From assembly GCF_033962415.1 (NCBI RefSeq), contig NZ_JAVIKH010000013.1, forward strand, positions 1 through 64,000: 64,000 nucleotides of DNA, given 5' to 3'. Shown in pieces: positions 13,651-64,000 of the stretch. Within the stretch, counting starts at the first letter, position 1. The number at the start of each line of letters is the position of its first letter. This DNA comes from Candidatus Cetobacterium colombiensis. GTDB lineage: Bacteria; Fusobacteriota; Fusobacteriia; Fusobacteriales; Fusobacteriaceae. Position numbers and translations under genes: made by a program. Under the pieces are notes generated by a model. The model was not told where the DNA came from. It searched no databases and worked only from the letters and a program-made list of their open reading frames with translations.

Positions 13651-14241
13651 CTAAAGTTTTCTCCTTTTTTTACCTATTTCTCTGATTTTACTTTTTTCAA
13701 ATATTCCATTATTATAAAAATCATAATCTATTTTCTCTACTTTATTATTGATCATATACACAATATTCACTTTTAATTCCAAGACACTCTCATTAATTTC
13801 TAGTAAAATTAAGTGCTCATTTAAAGATATTTTTCGCTCGCTTTTTTCTATATCATAAATAAAATTATATATATCTTTTTCTAAACCAATTCCATGAAAA
13901 AAAATTTCTTTACTATTTATCATATTTTTATTATCTATTTCTCTACCAATAGTATCTATTATTATATTGTTGGATTTTGACAATAAATTTAAATATTCAA
14001 ATATTTCATATTCTCCTTTAAAACTTAACTGAATTTCTTTTTCTCTAAATTCTATTTTTTTTAAAGATTTTTTATCAAAATCTTCTTTAGATATTTTTAA
14101 CAATTCTTCTTTTTCAAAATTTAATTTTTTTAACTCTTTTAATTGTTTATCTAACTCTTTTTCATTTACCAATTGTTGTTTTAATTTTATCAATGGATTT
14201 ATTAAAAAAAAATATAAAATAATTATCTCTGATATTATCAA
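13651..14241 (-). CDS. PilO/GspM-like inner-membrane protein
   Basis: A 196-residue protein with one N-terminal membrane segment (about residues 2-17), a Lys/Glu-rich coiled coil (about 20-65) and a small alpha/beta periplasmic domain. This is the topology of PilO/GspM, the alignment-complex subunit that pairs with PilN/GspL. No family motif is strong, so the call rests on layout and operon position between the GspL/PilN-like gene and the secretin. The start is a TTG with no clear ribosome-binding site. The open frame and hydrophobic character continue a few codons upstream, so the start is uncertain. Confidence 0.6.
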   Translation of the reverse strand: MIISEIIILYFFLINPLIKLKQQLVNEKELDKQLKELKKLNFEKEELLKISKEDFDKKSLKKIEFREKEIQLSFKGEYEIFEYLNLLSKSNNIIIDTIGREIDNKNMINSKEIFFHGIGLEKDIYNFIYDIEKSERKISLNEHLILLEINESVLELKVNIVYMINNKVEKIDYDFYNNGIFEKSKIREIGKKRRKL

Positions 14242-15504: not shown

Positions 15505-15994
15505 TTAAATAATATCCTTTCATACACACTCCATATTCTTCTAATATAAATACAATATTTAACTTATCTAATATTTTTTCTCTACTTCCTTGATTAATTT
15601 CTATTTCATTTATTCTAATTTTTTTTCCAGAAAAAGAAGATAAATAATTTTTTTCAAATAAATATATTTCTACCTCTGTATAATTAAGATTTGGAATATA
15701 TTTCTGGATTACTAAGGTATTTCCCTCTTTTAAAGTTGGTTTAGAATAATCCAAATACACTTCCACCCTATTTAAATTATAAATTTTATAATCTAAAGAT
15801 TCATAAATTGAATTTTCTATTTTATTTAAAGTTAATTTAATATTTTTATTATATTTTGTTCTATAGAGTTCTTTTTTTTTCTCTAAATTTATATATTTCA
15901 GATAGAAATAAGCCATTTCTAATATAATTAAAATAACTACTGTTATAGACAAAGTTTCTATTAATGAAAATCCTTTATTTTTGTTTATATACAT
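15473..15994 (-). CDS. Prepilin-like protein (GspJ/PilW type)
   Basis: A 173-residue protein starting MYINKNKGFSLIETLSI. The leader ends in Gly, followed by Phe at +1 and Glu at +5, with a hydrophobic helix to about residue 30. This is a canonical prepilin-peptidase substrate. The globular domain is beta-rich and unassigned. Size and place in the operon suggest GspJ or PilW, a minor pilin of the tip complex. It overlaps both neighbours by about 20-30 bases. Confidence 0.75.
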   Translation of the reverse strand: MYINKNKGFSLIETLSITVVILIILEMAYFYLKYINLEKKKELYRTKYNKNIKLTLNKIENSIYESLDYKIYNLNRVEVYLDYSKPTLKEGNTLVIQKYIPNLNYTEVEIYLFEKNYLSSFSGKKIRINEIEINQGSREKILDKLNIVFILEEYGVCMKGYYLNERFKKEFKK

Positions 15995-16292: not shown

Positions 16293-16740
16293 ATTTCTCC
16301 AAAATTAAAATTAAAATAAAAGATAAAACTAAAAATGGTCCAAATGCTATCTCATTACTTATTTTTCTAGTCAAAAGATACTTTAAAAAAATAAATAATA
16401 ATGGAATTATAAAACTTATGTTTATAAACAATAATATTTTATAAAAACTTTGAAATTTTAATAAAAATCCTATATTCATTATTAACTTTATATCTCCTAC
16501 TCCCATGCATTCTTTATTAAGAAAATCACTTCCATATGAATAAATAAAAATAAATGGAAGCGTATAAACCGCACTTCCTAAGAATCTTTGATATAAATTA
16601 TTCTCTAATACTCCCAATAGAATTCCTAAAACTAAAAGTAATAAATTACTTTTATTAGAAATAATTTTTTCCTTAATATCCTTAAAAATTATTTGCAGTA
16701 AAATTATAACTATAAAGACATAAATTATAAATTTGACCAT
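16282..16740 (-). CDS. Prepilin peptidase (A24 family, short form)
   Basis: An integral-membrane aspartic protease of 152 residues that cleaves the prepilin leaders encoded around it. Both catalytic aspartates are visible: D21 in FKDIKEKIISN and D83 in GVGDIKLI. About five hydrophobic segments are present. The N-terminal cytoplasmic methylase domain with zinc cysteines, present in full GspO/PilD (about 250-290 residues), is missing. The pseudopilins may therefore be cleaved but not N-methylated by this enzyme. Confidence 0.88.
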   Translation of the reverse strand: MVKFIIYVFIVIILLQIIFKDIKEKIISNKSNLLLLVLGILLGVLENNLYQRFLGSAVYTLPFIFIYSYGSDFLNKECMGVGDIKLIMNIGFLLKFQSFYKILLFINISFIIPLLFIFLKYLLTRKISNEIAFGPFLVLSFILILILEKYGI

Positions 16741-22979: not shown

Positions 22980-23020
22980 ATATTTCTCCTTTTATTTTTG
23001 TCCATATACACAAATAAATG

Positions 23021-23066: not shown

Positions 23067-24434
23067 TTATTTTCCTACACAGAAATTACTAAAGATATGA
23101 TCTAAAAGATCTTCATTACTAATTTCTCCTGTTACTTCTGACAACGAATCTAATGCTTCTTTTAAATCTACTGCTATTAAATCCATTGGTAATCCCATAT
23201 CTATTGTTTCAAATATATTTTCTACTGCTTGTTTAGTTTTTTCTAATGCTGATTTATGTCTAACATTAGTAATCACTAATTTTTGAGAACTATCTTCAAC
23301 TTGTCCAGAAACAACATAATTATATATTTCTTTCTCCATTGAATCTATTCCTATTTTTTCTAATGCAGAAATCTTTATCCATTTTTTTATTTTTGTTAAT
23401 GGTGTTATATCTAACTTAGAATCAACATCTGTTTTATTAATTAGTCCAATAACTTTATCTGCATCAATTCTCTCATGAATTTTTAGATCTTCCTCATCTA
23501 ATTCTCTCGAATTATCTACAACAAAAAGTACTAAATCTGCTTTATCTATTAATTCTTTAGATTTTTCTACACCTATATTTTCAACTAAATCATCTGTTTT
23601 TCTAATTCCTGCAGTATCAACCAATACTAAAGGAATTCCATTTAAATTAATAACCTCTTCAATTATGTCTCTAGTTGTTCCAGCTATATGTGTTACAATA
23701 GCTCTTTCCTCTCTTAAAATAGAGTTTAATAAACTAGATTTTCCTACGTTAGGTTTTCCTACAATAGCTGTTTTTACACCCTCTTTAATCATCTTACCCT
23801 TATTGTATGATTTGATTAAAGCATCTGTTGTACTAACTACATTATGTAAATTATCAACTAAATCATCTGGTAAAGGATCATCTATTCCCTCTTCAGGATA
23901 ATCTAAAACTACATTAACGTGTGCAGAAACATCTAATAATTGTTTCTTTAAAATTTCTATTTGTTCCTTTAAATCTCCTCTAAGTTGATTTAAAGATAGT
24001 GAAATACTTTTATCAGTTTTTCCATGAATTAAATCTATTACAGCTTCTGCTTGAGTTAAATCTAATCTTCCATTTAAGAAAGCTCTTCTTGTAAACTCTC
24101 CAAGTTCAGCTATTCTAGCTCCTTTTGTTAAAACCAATTCCAATACTTTTTCAGTTATTAAAAATCCACCATGACAGTTAATTTCAACAATATCTTCTTT
24201 AGTATAAGTATTTGGTCCTTTCATTATCGAAACTAAAACTTCATCAATTATATTTTCTCCGTCATAAAGATGGCCATAATTAATACTAAAATTTCTTAAT
24301 TCACTAACTTCTTTTTTTGATACAGGTTTAAATATTTTTGTTAGTATACATAAAGAATCACTTCCAGACATTCTAACAATTCCTATTCCACCTTCTCCTC
24401 TTGGAGTTGAAATAGCTGCAATAGTATCAAACAT
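23067..24434 (-). CDS. mnmE: tRNA modification GTPase MnmE
   Basis: A potassium-activated GTPase of 455 residues, partner of MnmG. Domains are an N-terminal tetrahydrofolate-binding domain (1-120), a helical domain split around the G domain (about 120-215 and 375-455), and the G domain with [11 protein letters not shown] (P-loop, about 224), DTAG and NKTD. The extreme C-terminus is CVGK, matching the C-x-G-K motif whose cysteine is needed for tRNA modification. It is 12 bases downstream of the jag gene. Confidence 0.98.
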
Positions 24435-26422: not shown

Positions 26423-26456
26423 TTTAAAAACCCGGTGTTTTAGATCACCGGGTTTT
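26423..26456 (-). terminator. Terminator/attenuator after rpmH
   Basis: An 11-bp stem (AAAACCCGGTG 26427-26437 with CACCGGGTTTT 26446-26456). The right arm overlaps the rpmH stop codon. It lies before rnpA, so it probably lets only part of the transcription through. Confidence 0.85.
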
Positions 26457-26589
26457 ATGCTGATAATTCTTTTCTTCCTCTTGCTCTTCTTCTCTTTAAT
26501 ACTTTTCTTCCGTTTTTAGTTGCCATTCTAGCTCTAAATCCGTGATCTTTCTTGTATTTTCTGTTATTTGGCTGATAAGTTCTTTTCAT
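26455..26589 (-). CDS. rpmH: 50S ribosomal protein L34
   Basis: A 44-residue, highly basic ribosomal protein, [20 protein letters not shown]..., ending [12 protein letters not shown]. It is the universal marker gene next to dnaA at many chromosome origins. Here the gene on its other side is not dnaA but the Rep-like gene at 27354. GGAGG lies 8 bases before the ATG. Confidence 0.98.
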
Positions 26590-26656: not shown

Positions 26657-26803
26657 GTAAATTCTAATAAATAAAAATTTAGCCTCTGAATTGTTTTAAA
26701 AATAAATTATATTTGAATTGAAATGCTATAGTTGTTTTTTGTTTTTTGTATAATGTTATATGTACAGACTAAGTTAGAAAAAAAATATATCAAAAACCTT
26801 TAT

Positions 26804-27320
26804 ATTTAAAGCATTTATTAGAAAAAAAATATTATTGATAATATACAAATATAAAAAAGCTTATATTCATTGAATTTATAAGCTAATAGAAAAATAAAAA
26901 GTAAATAAAATCAAGGGTTTTATTAAATAAAAAATATTATTGATGATATACATTTTAAAAAACCTTGATTTTAAAAGGATATTGATATTTAATTTTATTA
27001 AGAATCTAATAAAATCAATAGTTTTTTTACTAATAAAAATATTATTGATAGTATACAAACATTAAAACCCTTATTTTTATTAGAATTGTTTATGTTTATG
27101 TTAATTAAAACCTAATGAAATTAAAGCCTTTTATAGTTTAATAAATATTATTGATGATATACATTTTAAAAAAGCTTGATTTTAAAAGGATATTGATATT
27201 TTGTTTTATTAAGAATCTAATATAATCAGGGTTTTAAAAAACAAAAAAATATTATTGTTTATATACAGAAAAAATGGTATATTATATTACGCTAAATATA
27301 TTTATTATTGTATATATACA
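26804..27320 (+). repeat. Phased iteron array (five ~105-bp units plus one iteron)
   Basis: Iterons of consensus AATATTATTGATnnTATACA end-align at 26827-26847, 26932-26952, 27037-27057, 27143-27163 and 27247-27267. A degenerate sixth is at 27300-27320. Start-to-start distances are 105, 105, 106, 104 and 53, about ten and five helical turns. A second element (AATCAAGGGTTTT-like) precedes each of the five at 26804, 26909, 27013, 27119 and 27224, always 23-24 bases before the iteron. The core TATTATtgATAATA of the first copy is itself palindromic. Such arrays are binding sites for Rep initiators. Confidence 0.88.
26932..27228 (+). repeat. Pair of 86-bp direct repeats inside the array
   Basis: The segments 26932-27017 and 27143-27228 are 86 bases long and differ at only about 4 positions, with a 211-base period. 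Each includes an iteron and a second ATATTGATATT core (26979 and 27190) about 42-47 bases further on. The units in between (from 26827 and 27037) share only the iteron and the flanking element, so the array alternates between two unit types. Confidence 0.85.
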
Positions 27321-27353: not shown

Positions 27354-29192
27354 ATGGAAAAGAAAGGAAAAAATGAAGAAATTGTAGAAAATTTTAATAT
27401 AACATCTACAGGATCGCTTTTAACAGATATAACTAAGATTGATATAAGATTAAATCAATTGCCAGATATAGAAGTGAGAGAGGTTATAATAAAAGAAACA
27501 GGTAATTTTTTAAATTTAAAAGATAATGTAATTAATATACCTGTAGAAATGATTGTTTTTCCATTTTTTACTCCACAAAAACAAAATAAAAGAGTAAATT
27601 TTCAATATTCATTTGAAGATTTAGGTGTAACAATGTATTGTACATTAGTTGCTAAAGATTCAAAAGATAAAGTTTTTCAACCATCTATTTTTGAAGAAAA
27701 AATATATACATATTTAATTTCGACTTATGAAGCAAAAAAAGAACTAGATAATGAAGATGAATATATAGAATTTGAGATTTCAGATTTTATAGTTAATTTT
27801 TTAGGAAATAAAATGAATAGAACTTATTATACAAAAGTTGAACAAGCTTTAAAAAATTTAAAAAATACAGAGTATCAATTTGTTGTTTCAAATCATACAA
27901 AATTAGGGAAATATAAATTTGAAGATGAAGAGTTTAAACTTTTAACATATCAAAAATTAAAAAAAGGTAAAAAAATTTATTACAGAGTAACATTAAATAA
28001 AAATATAAGAAAGAAAATTAGTGATAAGCGTTATATTAAATATAATTCAAAAGCTCTTATGGAAATTTTGGCAAAAGATCCAATAGCAGGTAGAATTTAT
28101 AAATATATTAGTAAAATTAGATATGAAAAGCAGGAAGATAGAATTAATCTTAGAACAATAGCTGCAATAGTACCTTTAAAAACTGAACAGACTACAGAGA
28201 GGGTTAATAAAAATGGTGATACAAAAACTTATGTTTTATGTAGAATGAAACAAGTTTTAAAAAGAGTAGAAAAAGCGTATGATGTATTAGTTGAATTGGG
28301 TTATGTTGAATATTATGATTCATATCAAGATAAAGAAGAGGATACTTATTATATTATTTATAAATTTAATAGTGAAAAAGATGGAGAATGTCATGTTTCT
28401 TCTTTTATAGAATCTTCTAAAACAAATAAACCAAAAGAGATAACTTATTTTAAAAATAAAACTAATTATGAAGAATATAATGATAAACAAACTATTAATT
28501 TAGATGAAATAGAAGAAGCTGAAATTATAGAAGTAATCGAAGAAAAACCAAAAGAAGAAAAATTAAAATTAGAAGATAAAAAAATTAATAAGAAAAAACC
28601 AGAAAAAGAAAATGATTTTATATATCCTGAAGAAGTTGTAAAATATATTCAAAAAGCAAAAAAGAACATATATGCTTCAAGAGCTTGGGACAAAAGAACA
28701 GATACAAAAATTAAAAAAATTTTTATAGAAGAAGGAGAAATTATTTTAATTGAAGTTCTAAAAATAATATATAAAAATTTAAATTCTAATATAAAAACAA
28801 CATTAGTTCAATATATAAACGGTGTTCTGAAAAACATCTTAAGTCAAGAAAATGATGTTTCAAAACAAAACTTAACTTTGTTTAATAACATTGTGAAAGA
28901 AAAAGGTTTGATTAGTAAGAAGAAGATAAATCAAGCAAGAAGAACGGTGAAAAAACCGGTAATAAATAGTTTAAAAGAATTAATAGATGAAACAGATATA
29001 TCTGTAGATATTTTAAAGATTTTTGATGAGTATGATGAGTATGAAAAGTTAAAAATTGAAGAACAAGCAATTAATATTTGTTCATTGGAAGAAAATATTG
29101 ATGTTAATTTTTTACTGACTATGAAAAGAAAATCTAAAAAAATCTATTTTAATACAATAAAAAAATATATTGAGAGAGTTATTAACGAGTAG
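27354..29192 (+). CDS. Plasmid-type replication initiator (Rep/RepA-like) at the dnaA position
   Basis: A 612-residue protein, unlike DnaA: no Walker A, no AAA+ motifs. Residues of about 55-125 resemble plasmid replication initiator protein A (COG5534/RPA type): INIPVEMIVFPFFTPQK, then a beta-rich stretch with IFEEKIYTYLI. Residues of about 140-350 look like two winged-helix units (EFEISDFIVNFLGNKMNRTYYTKVEQALKNL; RTIAAIVPLKT...VEKAYDVLVELGYVEYY). A Glu/Lys-rich linker (about 390-425) leads to a helical C-terminal domain without recognised motifs. GAGAGAGG precedes the ATG. With the upstream iterons it makes a complete Rep/iteron cassette. The family call is from pattern, not a search. Confidence 0.72.
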   Translation: MEKKGKNEEIVENFNITSTGSLLTDITKIDIRLNQLPDIEVREVIIKETGNFLNLKDNVINIPVEMIVFPFFTPQKQNKRVNFQYSFEDLGVTMYCTLVAKDSKDKVFQPSIFEEKIYTYLISTYEAKKELDNEDEYIEFEISDFIVNFLGNKMNRTYYTKVEQALKNLKNTEYQFVVSNHTKLGKYKFEDEEFKLLTYQKLKKGKKIYYRVTLNKNIRKKISDKRYIKYNSKALMEILAKDPIAGRIYKYISKIRYEKQEDRINLRTIAAIVPLKTEQTTERVNKNGDTKTYVLCRMKQVLKRVEKAYDVLVELGYVEYYDSYQDKEEDTYYIIYKFNSEKDGECHVSSFIESSKTNKPKEITYFKNKTNYEEYNDKQTINLDEIEEAEIIEVIEEKPKEEKLKLEDKKINKKKPEKENDFIYPEEVVKYIQKAKKNIYASRAWDKRTDTKIKKIFIEEGEIILIEVLKIIYKNLNSNIKTTLVQYINGVLKNILSQENDVSKQNLTLFNNIVKEKGLISKKKINQARRTVKKPVINSLKELIDETDISVDILKIFDEYDEYEKLKIEEQAINICSLEENIDVNFLLTMKRKSKKIYFNTIKKYIERVINE

Positions 29193-31594: not shown

Positions 31595-32644
31595 ATGGGA
31601 TTAAAAGATTTTAAAGTAAAAGTTTATAAAGAAAATATTCTGCATAACTATCACTATTTAAAAAAAATAAAACAAAAAGATATAATAGCTGTTGTAAAAT
31701 CAAATGCTTATGGTCATGGTATTGAAAATATAGTGAAATTTTTATCTGAATGTGGATGTAAATATTTTGCAGTGGCTAGAGAATGTGAAGCTGAAAAAAT
31801 TCTAAAATTGAAGTTAAATGATATAAATATTATCATTTTGGAAACAATAGACGAATTAGACTTTATAAAAAAGAATAGTAATGTTCAAATGGTTGTAAAT
31901 AGTTTGAAAGATCTTTTAAATCTTTTAAATCAAGGAGTTTCTACAAAACAGTTGCATTTAAAATTAGATTTTGGTTTTGGAAGAAATGGTATTATGGAAA
32001 AAGAGTTTGATCAATTAGTAAAAATAGTAAAAGAAAAAGATTTAAACTTTAAAGGAATTTCTACTCATGTTTTTGCAGCAGACTATGAGGATATGTTAAA
32101 AATTGAAGAAAAATTTTCAGAAATTTTAAAGATATTGAAAAAAGATAGATTTGAAATGATTCATATGCAAAATAGTGCAGGAGTTATTTCAATAGAAGGA
32201 AAAAATTGTACTCATATAAGATGTGGAACAATTCTTTTTGGTCTCCAAGAAATAGGATATTTTGATCCAAATGTAAAAAGAGCATTTAAGTTAAATGGAA
32301 AAATCTTAGGAATAAAAGATTTAAAAGATTTAAAGTATATAGGTTATGAAAAAAAAGAGAATATAAATATAGAAAAATATAAAAAAATAGCTAAAATAAG
32401 ATTAGGTTATGGAGATGGATTTTCAAAAAGAAGTGAGGGAATTATGTCTATAATCAATAATAAAAAATTTAAAATAGTTCACATTAGCATGGATAGTTCA
32501 TTTATTTTAGTTGATGATTCTGTGAAAGAGGGAGACTTTGTAGAAATATTTCATGATTTAGAAGATGCAATAAATCACTTAAAAGTGCCTCATTATGAAT
32601 TTTTATCTTGTATAAATGATAGAATAAAAAGAGAATTAATATGA
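31595..32644 (+). CDS. alr: Alanine racemase
   Basis: A PLP-dependent racemase that supplies D-alanine for peptidoglycan. 349 residues, fold III. The PLP lysine is in AVVKSNAYGHG (about residue 34). The arginine/tyrosine segment is KIRLGYGDGFSKRS (catalytic Tyr from the partner subunit), and there are blocks corresponding to RPGIMLYG (RCGTILFG) and CMDQ (ISMDSSF). It is slightly short at the C-terminus compared with the usual 360-390. Other amino-acid racemases share this fold, so alanine is the likely but not proven substrate. It has its own GGAGG site, and a terminator precedes it. Confidence 0.85.
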   Translation: MGLKDFKVKVYKENILHNYHYLKKIKQKDIIAVVKSNAYGHGIENIVKFLSECGCKYFAVARECEAEKILKLKLNDINIIILETIDELDFIKKNSNVQMVVNSLKDLLNLLNQGVSTKQLHLKLDFGFGRNGIMEKEFDQLVKIVKEKDLNFKGISTHVFAADYEDMLKIEEKFSEILKILKKDRFEMIHMQNSAGVISIEGKNCTHIRCGTILFGLQEIGYFDPNVKRAFKLNGKILGIKDLKDLKYIGYEKKENINIEKYKKIAKIRLGYGDGFSKRSEGIMSIINNKKFKIVHISMDSSFILVDDSVKEGDFVEIFHDLEDAINHLKVPHYEFLSCINDRIKRELI

Positions 32645-36225: not shown

Positions 36226-36254
36226 TTGACTCTTAGAATTATTTTTGATAATAT
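36226..36254 (+). promoter_or_regulatory. Promoter of the sigma-54 activator gene
   Basis: TTGACT (36226-36231) and TAATAT (36249-36254) with a 17-base spacer, back to back with the leftward promoter. Confidence 0.75.
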
Positions 36255-36290
36255 ACATATATAAAAATAGTATAAATTAAAAGGAGTATC

Positions 36291-62697: not shown

Positions 62698-64000
62698 ATG
62701 TTTAGAAAAGATATTCCCCAATTTTTAATAGATAAAAAAAATAGTGTTATATATATAGGTTCTTCAAATAAAAATATAGATATTTATTATGAAAATATGA
62801 AAGAGCAAGATATTAATGTTATTGAACTTTCGAATATTCAAGAAGAAGATGATTATTATAGAGTAAATTACCAGCTATCTGAAGAGTTAAAAACAAATAA
62901 AAAACTTATAATCTTAATTTCGTTAGAAGGGCTTCTTGCAAAGTATTCATTAAATAGTGATGTTATAAAATTAAATTTAGGCCAAGGGGTTAAAAGAAAA
63001 GATTTAATTGAAATTTTAGAAAAAAACGACTATAAAAAAAATTACTTAGTAGAAAAAAGAATGGAGTTTTCAGTTAGAGGAGATATTTTAGATATTTATC
63101 CACTAAATGGTGAAAACCCAGTTAGAATAGAATATTTTGGTGATGAAATAGATAGAATAACATATTTCTCTGTCTTTGATCAAAAAAGCTTTGAAAAAAT
63201 AGAATCTTTAAATATGTATATTAACAAAAATAAATTTTATAGAATTGACTTTTTTCAACTTTTAGAAAAAATAAAAGACAATAGAAACTGTGATGTTTAT
63301 TTAGAAAATTCAGAAATAGTTAGATACAAATTAGAAGAAGCAATAGTGAGAGAGAGAGATAAAGAAGATGAGATAAGAGAACTTTATGAAAAAATAGAGT
63401 CCCTCTCTAAAAAGATGGAAGTTCTAAAAAGTGAAGGCGATACCGAAAGAGTAAAAACTTTAAGTAAAAAAGATGGAATAAAATATGAAAATATCTCTCA
63501 AATTCGTGAAGGGGATTATATAATTCATGAAAACTATGGTGTTGGTATTTATTTGGGAATTCAAGAGATTGATGGGAAAGATTATTTAACAATAAAATAT
63601 GCTGATGAAGATAGATTATTTGTTCCGATTGAAGGATTAAATAAAATAGAAAGATTTTTAGTTTCAAGTGGAAAAACTCCAGAATTATATAATCTAGGAA
63701 GAAGAGGATTTAAAAGAAGAAGAGAAAAACTCGAAGAAGATATGCTGAAATTTGCAAAAGAAATTGTGGAAATTCAAGCTAGAAGAGCTCTTCATATTGG
63801 TTATAAATTTTCTCCAGATACAGTTTGGCAAGAGGAGTTTGAAGAAAAGTTTCCTTATATAGAAACTAGAGATCAAAAAAATGCTATAAAAGATGTAAAA
63901 AGAGATATGGAGTCATCTAAAGTTATGGATAGAATAGTCTGTGGAGACGTTGGCTATGGGAAGACAGAAGTAGCCATAAGAGCTGCATTTAAATGTGTAA
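62698..64000 (+). CDS. mfd: Transcription-repair coupling factor Mfd (partial, cut by window end)
   Basis: The first 434 codons of Mfd, a DNA translocase that removes stalled RNA polymerase and recruits UvrA. It has a reduced UvrB-like N-terminal module (MEFSVRGDILDIYPLNGENP near 125), the CarD-like RNA-polymerase-interaction domain from about 270 (EGDYIIHENYGVGIYLGI), the TRDQKNAIKDVKRDM motif, and the Walker A GDVGYGKTE at about 417. In E. coli the Walker motif lies near residue 630, so about 200 residues are missing before it. AGGAGG precedes the ATG. The frame is open at the window edge. Confidence 0.95.
   Translation, partial: MFRKDIPQFLIDKKNSVIYIGSSNKNIDIYYENMKEQDINVIELSNIQEEDDYYRVNYQLSEELKTNKKLIILISLEGLLAKYSLNSDVIKLNLGQGVKRKDLIEILEKNDYKKNYLVEKRMEFSVRGDILDIYPLNGENPVRIEYFGDEIDRITYFSVFDQKSFEKIESLNMYINKNKFYRIDFFQLLEKIKDNRNCDVYLENSEIVRYKLEEAIVRERDKEDEIRELYEKIESLSKKMEVLKSEGDTERVKTLSKKDGIKYENISQIREGDYIIHENYGVGIYLGIQEIDGKDYLTIKYADEDRLFVPIEGLNKIERFLVSSGKTPELYNLGRRGFKRRREKLEEDMLKFAKEIVEIQARRALHIGYKFSPDTVWQEEFEEKFPYIETRDQKNAIKDVKRDMESSKVMDRIVCGDVGYGKTEVAIRAAFKCV

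Follow-up and report, generated by a model that had tools for sequence, protein, structure and literature searches.

Plasmid iterons are normally closely packed, and the host DnaA usually participates at such origins. For iteron plasmids it has further been described, in work by Bowers (2007) as cited in PMC4980987, that separation by half a helical turn abolishes cooperativity. A chromosomal system of comparable design is ori2 of Vibrio chromosome 2, where RctB, a tandem winged-helix initiator, acts on head-to-tail iterons and on a second kind of site; the system is autoregulated and has titration iterons close to its origin (PMC6090056, PMC3937223). A DnaA site remains a requirement of ori2 (PMC6090056). 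As of 2020, no free-living bacterium outside the cyanobacteria had been reported without dnaA (PMC7198777).

Here, a locus resembling ori2/RctB in its predicted initiator fold, its head-to-tail iterons and a second kind of site, and probably in autoregulation and titration iterons, was analyzed in a window of 64,000 nucleotides (the whole stretch of DNA under study) from Candidatus Cetobacterium colombiensis, and followed through related genomes. We propose that the rpmH-rep locus is very probably the primary chromosomal origin of the Fusobacteriaceae, consisting of a captured plasmid rep-iteron module, with dnaA lost. The sequence evidence points to the protein, the site and the locus involved, and for melting, helicase loading and timing we infer the likely course. 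DnaA is treated as essentially universal, and this family, to which oral and gut Fusobacterium belong, appears to manage without it and to use a captured plasmid initiator for its only chromosome. Neither DnaA loss nor a Rep origin in Fusobacteriota was found in our literature search, outside which most subscription journals lay, and an earlier notice is possible.

DnaA and the rep gene beside rpmH

When 98 Fusobacteriota genomes were searched in all six frames, the DnaA C-terminal domain was detected in none of the 61 Fusobacteriaceae and in 36 of the 37 other Fusobacteriota, the lone exception being an 82%-complete genome. The full DnaA ATPase domain (E <= 1e-45) was confined to those same 36 non-Fusobacteriaceae genomes; matches to this domain within Fusobacteriaceae were weak and partial (best E 3.4e-12) and are read as probable IstB/DnaC-like ATPases. 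The 2.1-Mb chromosome of F. vincentii SB055 gave no DnaA ATPase-domain match at all, and the window held no DnaA box (TTATNCACA), against 3.4 expected by chance. The helicase operator DciA was retained nearly everywhere.

In other bacteria, rpmH flanks dnaA. In the window, rpmH (26455..26589, minus strand) is the divergent neighbor of rep (27354..29192, plus strand), which occupies the dnaA slot and encodes a 612-aa plasmid-type initiator. To the left of the repeats, the minus strand carries rpmH, rnpA, yidD, yidC, jag, mnmE, and mnmG (jag and yidC named by Pfam, and rnpA, yidD, mnmE, and mnmG by size and order), and rep itself adjoins direct repeats in a single orientation, as iteron-type reps do. 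A Rep orthologue was found in 59 of 61 Fusobacteriaceae, a count that includes two genomes with contig-end fragments only and one (G060, 76% complete) with chromid-type paralogs only; no Rep was found in two MAGs, G039 (93% complete) and G045 (70%), and the gaps in G039, G045, and G060 are likely contig breaks at the origin. Divergent rpmH adjoined rep in 50 of the 56 loci read, the remaining loci being truncated by the end of a contig or by the limited length of sequence retrieved. Moreover, the Ilyobacter order, rpmH, rep-recF-dciA-(RemA-like)-gyrB-gyrA, is found in Haliovirga abyssi, an outgroup from the sister family, as rpmH, dnaA-recF-dciA-(RemA-like)-gyrB-gyrA. Chromosomal Reps formed a single clade (support 100/99) in a maximum-likelihood tree, with plasmid and chromid Reps outside it; several long-branched rows leave the order among the plasmid Reps unsure.

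Rep matched Pfam RPA (PF10134; E 1.1e-7; 32.1 bits, above the gathering cut-off of 27), and this match recurred at E <= 1 in 29 of 44 Rep members. The predicted model, at a mean pLDDT of only 70, consists of a winged-helix pair (residues about 40-346), as in the tandem winged-helix fold of iteron-type Reps, followed by a linker without order and, at residues 422-612, a C-terminal domain made of helices. With Foldseek, its best PDB match was 5tbf, domains 2-3 of RctB (E 5.8e-7); a further match was to 2nra, the complex of R6K Pi with its iteron (E 8.5e-3). The C-terminal domain folded alone had no confident structural match by Foldseek, and since its fold is not recognizable, it is only by inference that Rep would load the helicase. 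A DnaD-like helicase-loader domain at this end, suspected from a YINGILKN motif, was rejected, as neither Pfam nor Foldseek supported it. No phage relatives of Rep were found in the search.

The rep locus, besides adjoining rpmH, lies at a skew switch, which is an oriC-type placement: between 26 and 28 kb of the window, the sign of both GC skew and AT skew flips, and so does the strand of the genes. Skew was also sampled along four complete genomes of relatives. The sign switched at 252-336 kb in G037, where rep lies at 277 kb, and again at 1092-1184 kb, the antipode being at about 1116 kb; in Ilyobacter (G041), it switched at rep (coordinate 42) and again, near the antipode, at 1020-1130 kb of 2046 kb; in G015, at 590-633 kb, with rep at 610 kb; and in G025, at 1239-1424 kb, with rep at 1359 kb, where the signal is noisy from rearrangement. 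In the rearranged chromosome of F. vincentii, the global skew is scrambled and a sharp local switch lies at rep (-0.26/+0.31).

The comparison with plasmid iterons in the preliminary description needs a different frame, since the region is chromosomal, within a 2.8-Mb draft genome. A plasmid or an integrated element was rejected on the grounds of skew, synteny, and the single vertical Rep clade. It is likewise very improbable that the module is a mere remnant of an integrated plasmid, the true start lying elsewhere or being of a DnaA-independent, recombination type as in some cyanobacteria and symbionts. Such a remnant would account for a Rep of plasmid type with plasmid relatives, and multiple origins have been reported in DnaA-less cyanobacteria (PMC7198777), but it sits poorly with a Rep that forms one vertical clade over 14 genera, with a rep gene in the dnaA synteny slot, with a skew switch exactly at rep and a second one at the antipode, and with the satellite iterons that surround the locus; the skew of DnaA-less cyanobacteria is, in addition, irregular (PMC7198777).

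With regard to plasmids, the F. vincentii SB055 record labeled 'plasmid pSB055A' (NZ_CP084075.1; 2,108,235 bp) is a chromosome by size and content (rpmH, the chromosomal rep, iterons, and skew), and a plasmid-type rep together with an absent dnaA may explain the label. Several Rep_3-type reps occur on five contigs of the assembly from which the window was taken, so that this host carries plasmids too.

The iteron array, its spacing, and a second element

Upstream of rep, the window contains six head-to-tail iterons of 18 bp (consensus TATTATTGnnnrTATACA), all on the plus strand and identified by pattern match: iteron 1 (TATTATTGATAATATACA, 26830..26847), iteron 2 (26935..26952), iteron 3 (27040..27057), iteron 4 (27146..27163), iteron 5 (27250..27267), and iteron 6 (27303..27320). 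The gaps reported in the preliminary description (105, 105, 106, and 104, then 53) were reproduced exactly from these start positions. The iteron pattern (TATTATTGNNNRTATACA) had seven matches in the whole 2.8-Mb genome, six of them in the rpmH-rep array, and a control with the reversed pattern had none; a chance origin of the array was rejected. The repeats are DNA elements in register that recur as satellites, and for this reason an interpretation as RNA structure or as a regulator was set aside. The array is AT-rich (85% AT over roughly 0.5 kb), and with a weight matrix, iterons pointing the same way were recovered between rpmH and rep in every Fusobacteriaceae genus (14/14).

Some origins look internally duplicated, with ten iterons arranged as two similar sets in G015 and near-identical units repeated in G040. 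In G008, a 22-kb contig (G008:C6:9000-20000) carries a second intact rpmH-rep-iteron copy and also a rep copy in inverted orientation that is full of stop codons and has iterons of its own; this second origin copy could be either a duplicated origin or an assembly oddity.

Beside rpmH in related Fusobacteriaceae, the gaps are kept in whole-turn classes and the spacers have diverged, in agreement with the conserved spacing that had been predicted for this region. Class means were 83.7, 93.3, 104.5, 116.4, 126.0, and 138.9 bp for 8 to 13 turns, corresponding to 10.37-10.68 bp per turn, and the gaps, mostly of 84-139 bp, thus differ from the roughly 20-22 bp packing of iteron-type Rep origins. 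Among 123 gaps of 80-120 bp in Fusobacteriaceae, counted after removal of near-duplicate genomes, none fell in the troughs at 85-90, 96-100, and 108-113 bp, and the vector strength at 10.5 bp was 0.66 (p about 0.0005, deduplicated per genus). Spacer identity to the window was about 0.55-0.74 versus 0.56-0.67 for shuffled spacers, even within the genus, and strong conservation was restricted to the promoter-proximal spacer. Consequently, with spacers near background and gap classes kept, it is the register that is conserved and not the sequence. The short promoter-proximal gaps of one genus, g4 (30, 56, 70, and 152), fit a 10.5-bp lattice poorly.

The earlier proposal that all sites face the same side of the helix agrees with the data if a turn takes about 10.4-10.7 bp, but its strict form was not proven: successive classes are best fitted by a step of 11.0 bp, at which 105 bp would correspond to 9.5 turns, so that a same-face arrangement is the simplest geometry and not the only one. 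We regard strict same-face geometry as likely. A phased Rep nucleoprotein complex on the iterons is well supported by the gap classes, and the looping or wrapping that had also been proposed may describe its shape.

In the window genome alone, part of the regularity of spacing is explained by recent duplication, given a direct repeat of 126 bp (86% identical, copies 211 bp apart). This repeat, and the duplicated arrays of G015 and G040, could be taken to mean that tandem duplication and gene conversion of one unit produced the 105-bp register as a side effect, with no selection for phase. We consider this improbable, as spacers compared between species are near shuffled identity and their lengths still fall in classes one turn apart, with 0/123 gaps between them, and as the plasmid pILYOP02 also has a 105-bp period despite its unrelated iterons.

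The phased Rep complex may involve a second element, a dyad (CCTTkATTTTwnwAGG) whose start in the window is locked about 28 bp past that of the iteron; an inverted copy of it lies at +70/71. By motif match, forward copies on the plus strand lie ahead of iteron 1 (26797..26812), at +38 from iteron 1 (26868..26883), and at +28 from iteron 2 (CCTTGATTTTAAAAGG, 26963..26978), iteron 3 (27068..27083), and iteron 4 (27174..27189), and inverted copies on the minus strand lie at +71 from iteron 1 (26901..26916) and at +70 from iteron 2 (27005..27020) and iteron 4 (27216..27231). The element AATCAAGGGTTTT, which had been said to precede each of five iterons, is real and corresponds to the inverted copy, but the copies ahead of iterons 1 and 4 are weak and the forward ones had been missed. 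Across genera, the distance from iteron start to dyad start is locked at +25 to +29, most often +28, and a minor peak occurs around +70; the best-match score of the dyad averaged 7.5 versus 2.65 in shuffles, for a motif learned from the same windows that it scored, so that the position lock is the stronger evidence. The iteron is specific to each replicon and the dyad is common to chromosomal and plasmid origins, suggesting a common partner, which may be a conserved Rep surface or a host factor.

A candidate rep promoter (27255..27283, plus strand) was recognized by consensus match and is not listed by a stricter default scan. Its -35, TTGTTT (27255-27260), lies inside iteron 5, whose TTG at 27255 it shares, followed by a 17-bp spacer and an extended -10, TGnTATATT (27278-27283). 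In most genera sampled, the TTG of the rep -35 is the TTG of an iteron, the spacer is of 17-18 bp, and the -10 is usually TG-extended. Rep bound to the promoter iterons would, from this layout, repress its own gene. Since iteron 5 holds the -35 and iteron 6 lies directly downstream of the presumed rep transcription start, the repeats could also be imagined as operators for Rep or another regulator, governing transcription of rep and rpmH only. That is extremely improbable: four more phased iterons reach about 525 bp upstream of rep, similar arrays occur in all genera, related iteron-bearing plasmids keep the same array beside rep, and the skew switch is located at the array.

Satellite iterons, ParB, and a working model

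Beyond the array that we favor as the origin, eight high-scoring iterons lie elsewhere in the window, where a Markov model expects none. Four are matrix matches at 13743..13760 (plus strand, -13 kb, inside a pil gene), 15976..15993 (plus, -11 kb), 16419..16436 (minus, a variant), and 32445..32462 (minus, a variant). The others are conserved across Cetobacterium, and are located between mnmG and mnmE (22993..23010, plus), inside mnmE (24333..24350, plus), at +9 kb (36240..36257, plus), and at +36 kb (63215..63232, minus). On a 1.9-Mb chromosome contig (G009), 13/13 exact sites lay within -14 to +136 kb of rep, at satellite places common to other Cetobacterium. The clustering near the origin was seen in all genera tested: in ten genomes from other genera, the sequence lying up to about 20 kb from rep (391 kb in total) held 71 sites, versus 1 in 608 kb of distal sequence; near and far regions of the same four genomes held 24 versus 1 satellite sites (p = 8e-16), and column-permuted matrices, used as a control for the satellite count, gave 0.24 sites on average.

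The site at 13743-13760 falls in a type IV pilus-operon gene (13651-14241, minus strand), over a conserved MYIxNNK motif, and a coding coincidence may partly lie behind it. In all homologues that bear the iteron, a rare codon ending in C is found there, which keeps the iteron G, the C-ending share being about 5-12% in these genes, and other satellites, unlike this one, are intergenic, which counts against coincidence.

Given that comparable titration iterons lie close to the origin in the RctB system (PMC3937223), Rep titration or handcuffing is the likely role of the satellites. Canonical chromosomal ParB was absent from Fusobacteriaceae among the 98 Fusobacteriota genomes, except for one suspect MAG (G045), was also missing in several Leptotrichiaceae genera, and was present in Haliovirga; no parS occurred in the window. 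The satellites might instead serve mainly segregation or origin condensation in a parS-like manner, a function for which the family-wide absence of ParB leaves room and which agrees with the clustering of the sites around the origin, as parS does. This seems unlikely to us, because several DnaA-bearing Leptotrichiaceae also have no ParB, Rep has no ParB domain match, and the RctB titration iterons near ori2 are a sufficient precedent (PMC3937223). Doubtful, too, is the broader proposition that one Rep does the jobs of both DnaA and ParB throughout the family, initiating at the array and organizing or segregating the origin through the satellites.

With titration retained as the preferred role, the evidence can be assembled into a working model. 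In an ancestor, a resident plasmid would have supplied its rep-iteron module to the old rpmH-dnaA locus by capture, and dnaA would have been lost. Rep would cooperatively fill the head-to-tail iterons as a phased array, bending or wrapping the roughly 0.5-kb AT-rich DNA, and the +28/+70 dyads might provide second contacts for Rep or for a shared host factor. The array would then melt and DnaB would be loaded with DciA, without DnaA, and Rep would shut off its own promoter via the proximal iterons. The satellites, duplicated soon after initiation, would titrate or handcuff Rep until the next cycle and so limit re-initiation, in parallel with the RctB sites of Vibrio chromosome 2. The preliminary description was supported in its reading of phased Rep sites and missed the larger picture of a DnaA-less primary origin, the dnaA slot, and the satellites. 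An outgroup with the DnaA arrangement and a plasmid carrying Rep would make this a natural case of in-place initiator replacement, in which DnaA-free origin opening and helicase loading become testable and in which helical phasing and initiator titration can be studied cleanly.

Comparison with known replication systems

Each of the parts has known counterparts, in iteron Rep origins and in RctB chromids, and what appears to be new is a sole, DnaA-less origin of the primary chromosome across a family. RctB runs a secondary chromosome, whereas Rep appears to be the sole chromosomal initiator here, without DnaA; indeed, an RctB-type chromid is a secondary replicon beside a DnaA-run chromosome, and the present locus lies on the main chromosome, with DnaA absent. 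Furthermore, RctB 12-mers are 10-11 bp apart, in contrast to the 18-bp iterons of Fusobacteriaceae, which are set whole turns apart at about 84-139 bp, and the Rep of this family has an extra C-terminal domain compared with RctB.

Iteron plasmids (R6K Pi, P1 RepA, and RK2 TrfA) resemble the locus in having a Rep of the same fold class beside an iteron array, and differ from it in that the Fusobacteriaceae iterons are spaced by about 105 bp and serve a chromosome as replicon, in the absence of DnaA. Within Fusobacteriota, the plasmids pILYOP01/02 and pHIC of Haliovirga abyssi encode homologous Reps (30-44% identity) and share the same origin dyad, but their iteron sequences differ from the chromosomal array. 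The Ilyobacter conjugative plasmid pILYOP02 (NC_014634.1) has ten iterons of unrelated sequence (TTCTCCGnaannGTGATG), whose gaps of 45, 61, 44, 61, 44, 60, 45, 60, and 29 amount to a period of 105 bp, each unit holding two iterons, and the dyad lies at +26 to +29 after most of them. In pHIC, where the dyad also follows the plasmid's own iterons, a 43%-identical Rep is found with adjacent parAB, and the Haliovirga chromosome keeps DnaA. Finally, DnaA-less cyanobacteria and insect symbionts have likewise lost dnaA (PMC7198777); they show irregular skew and multiple or unknown origins, whereas the Fusobacteriaceae appear to have a defined single origin and a replacement initiator.
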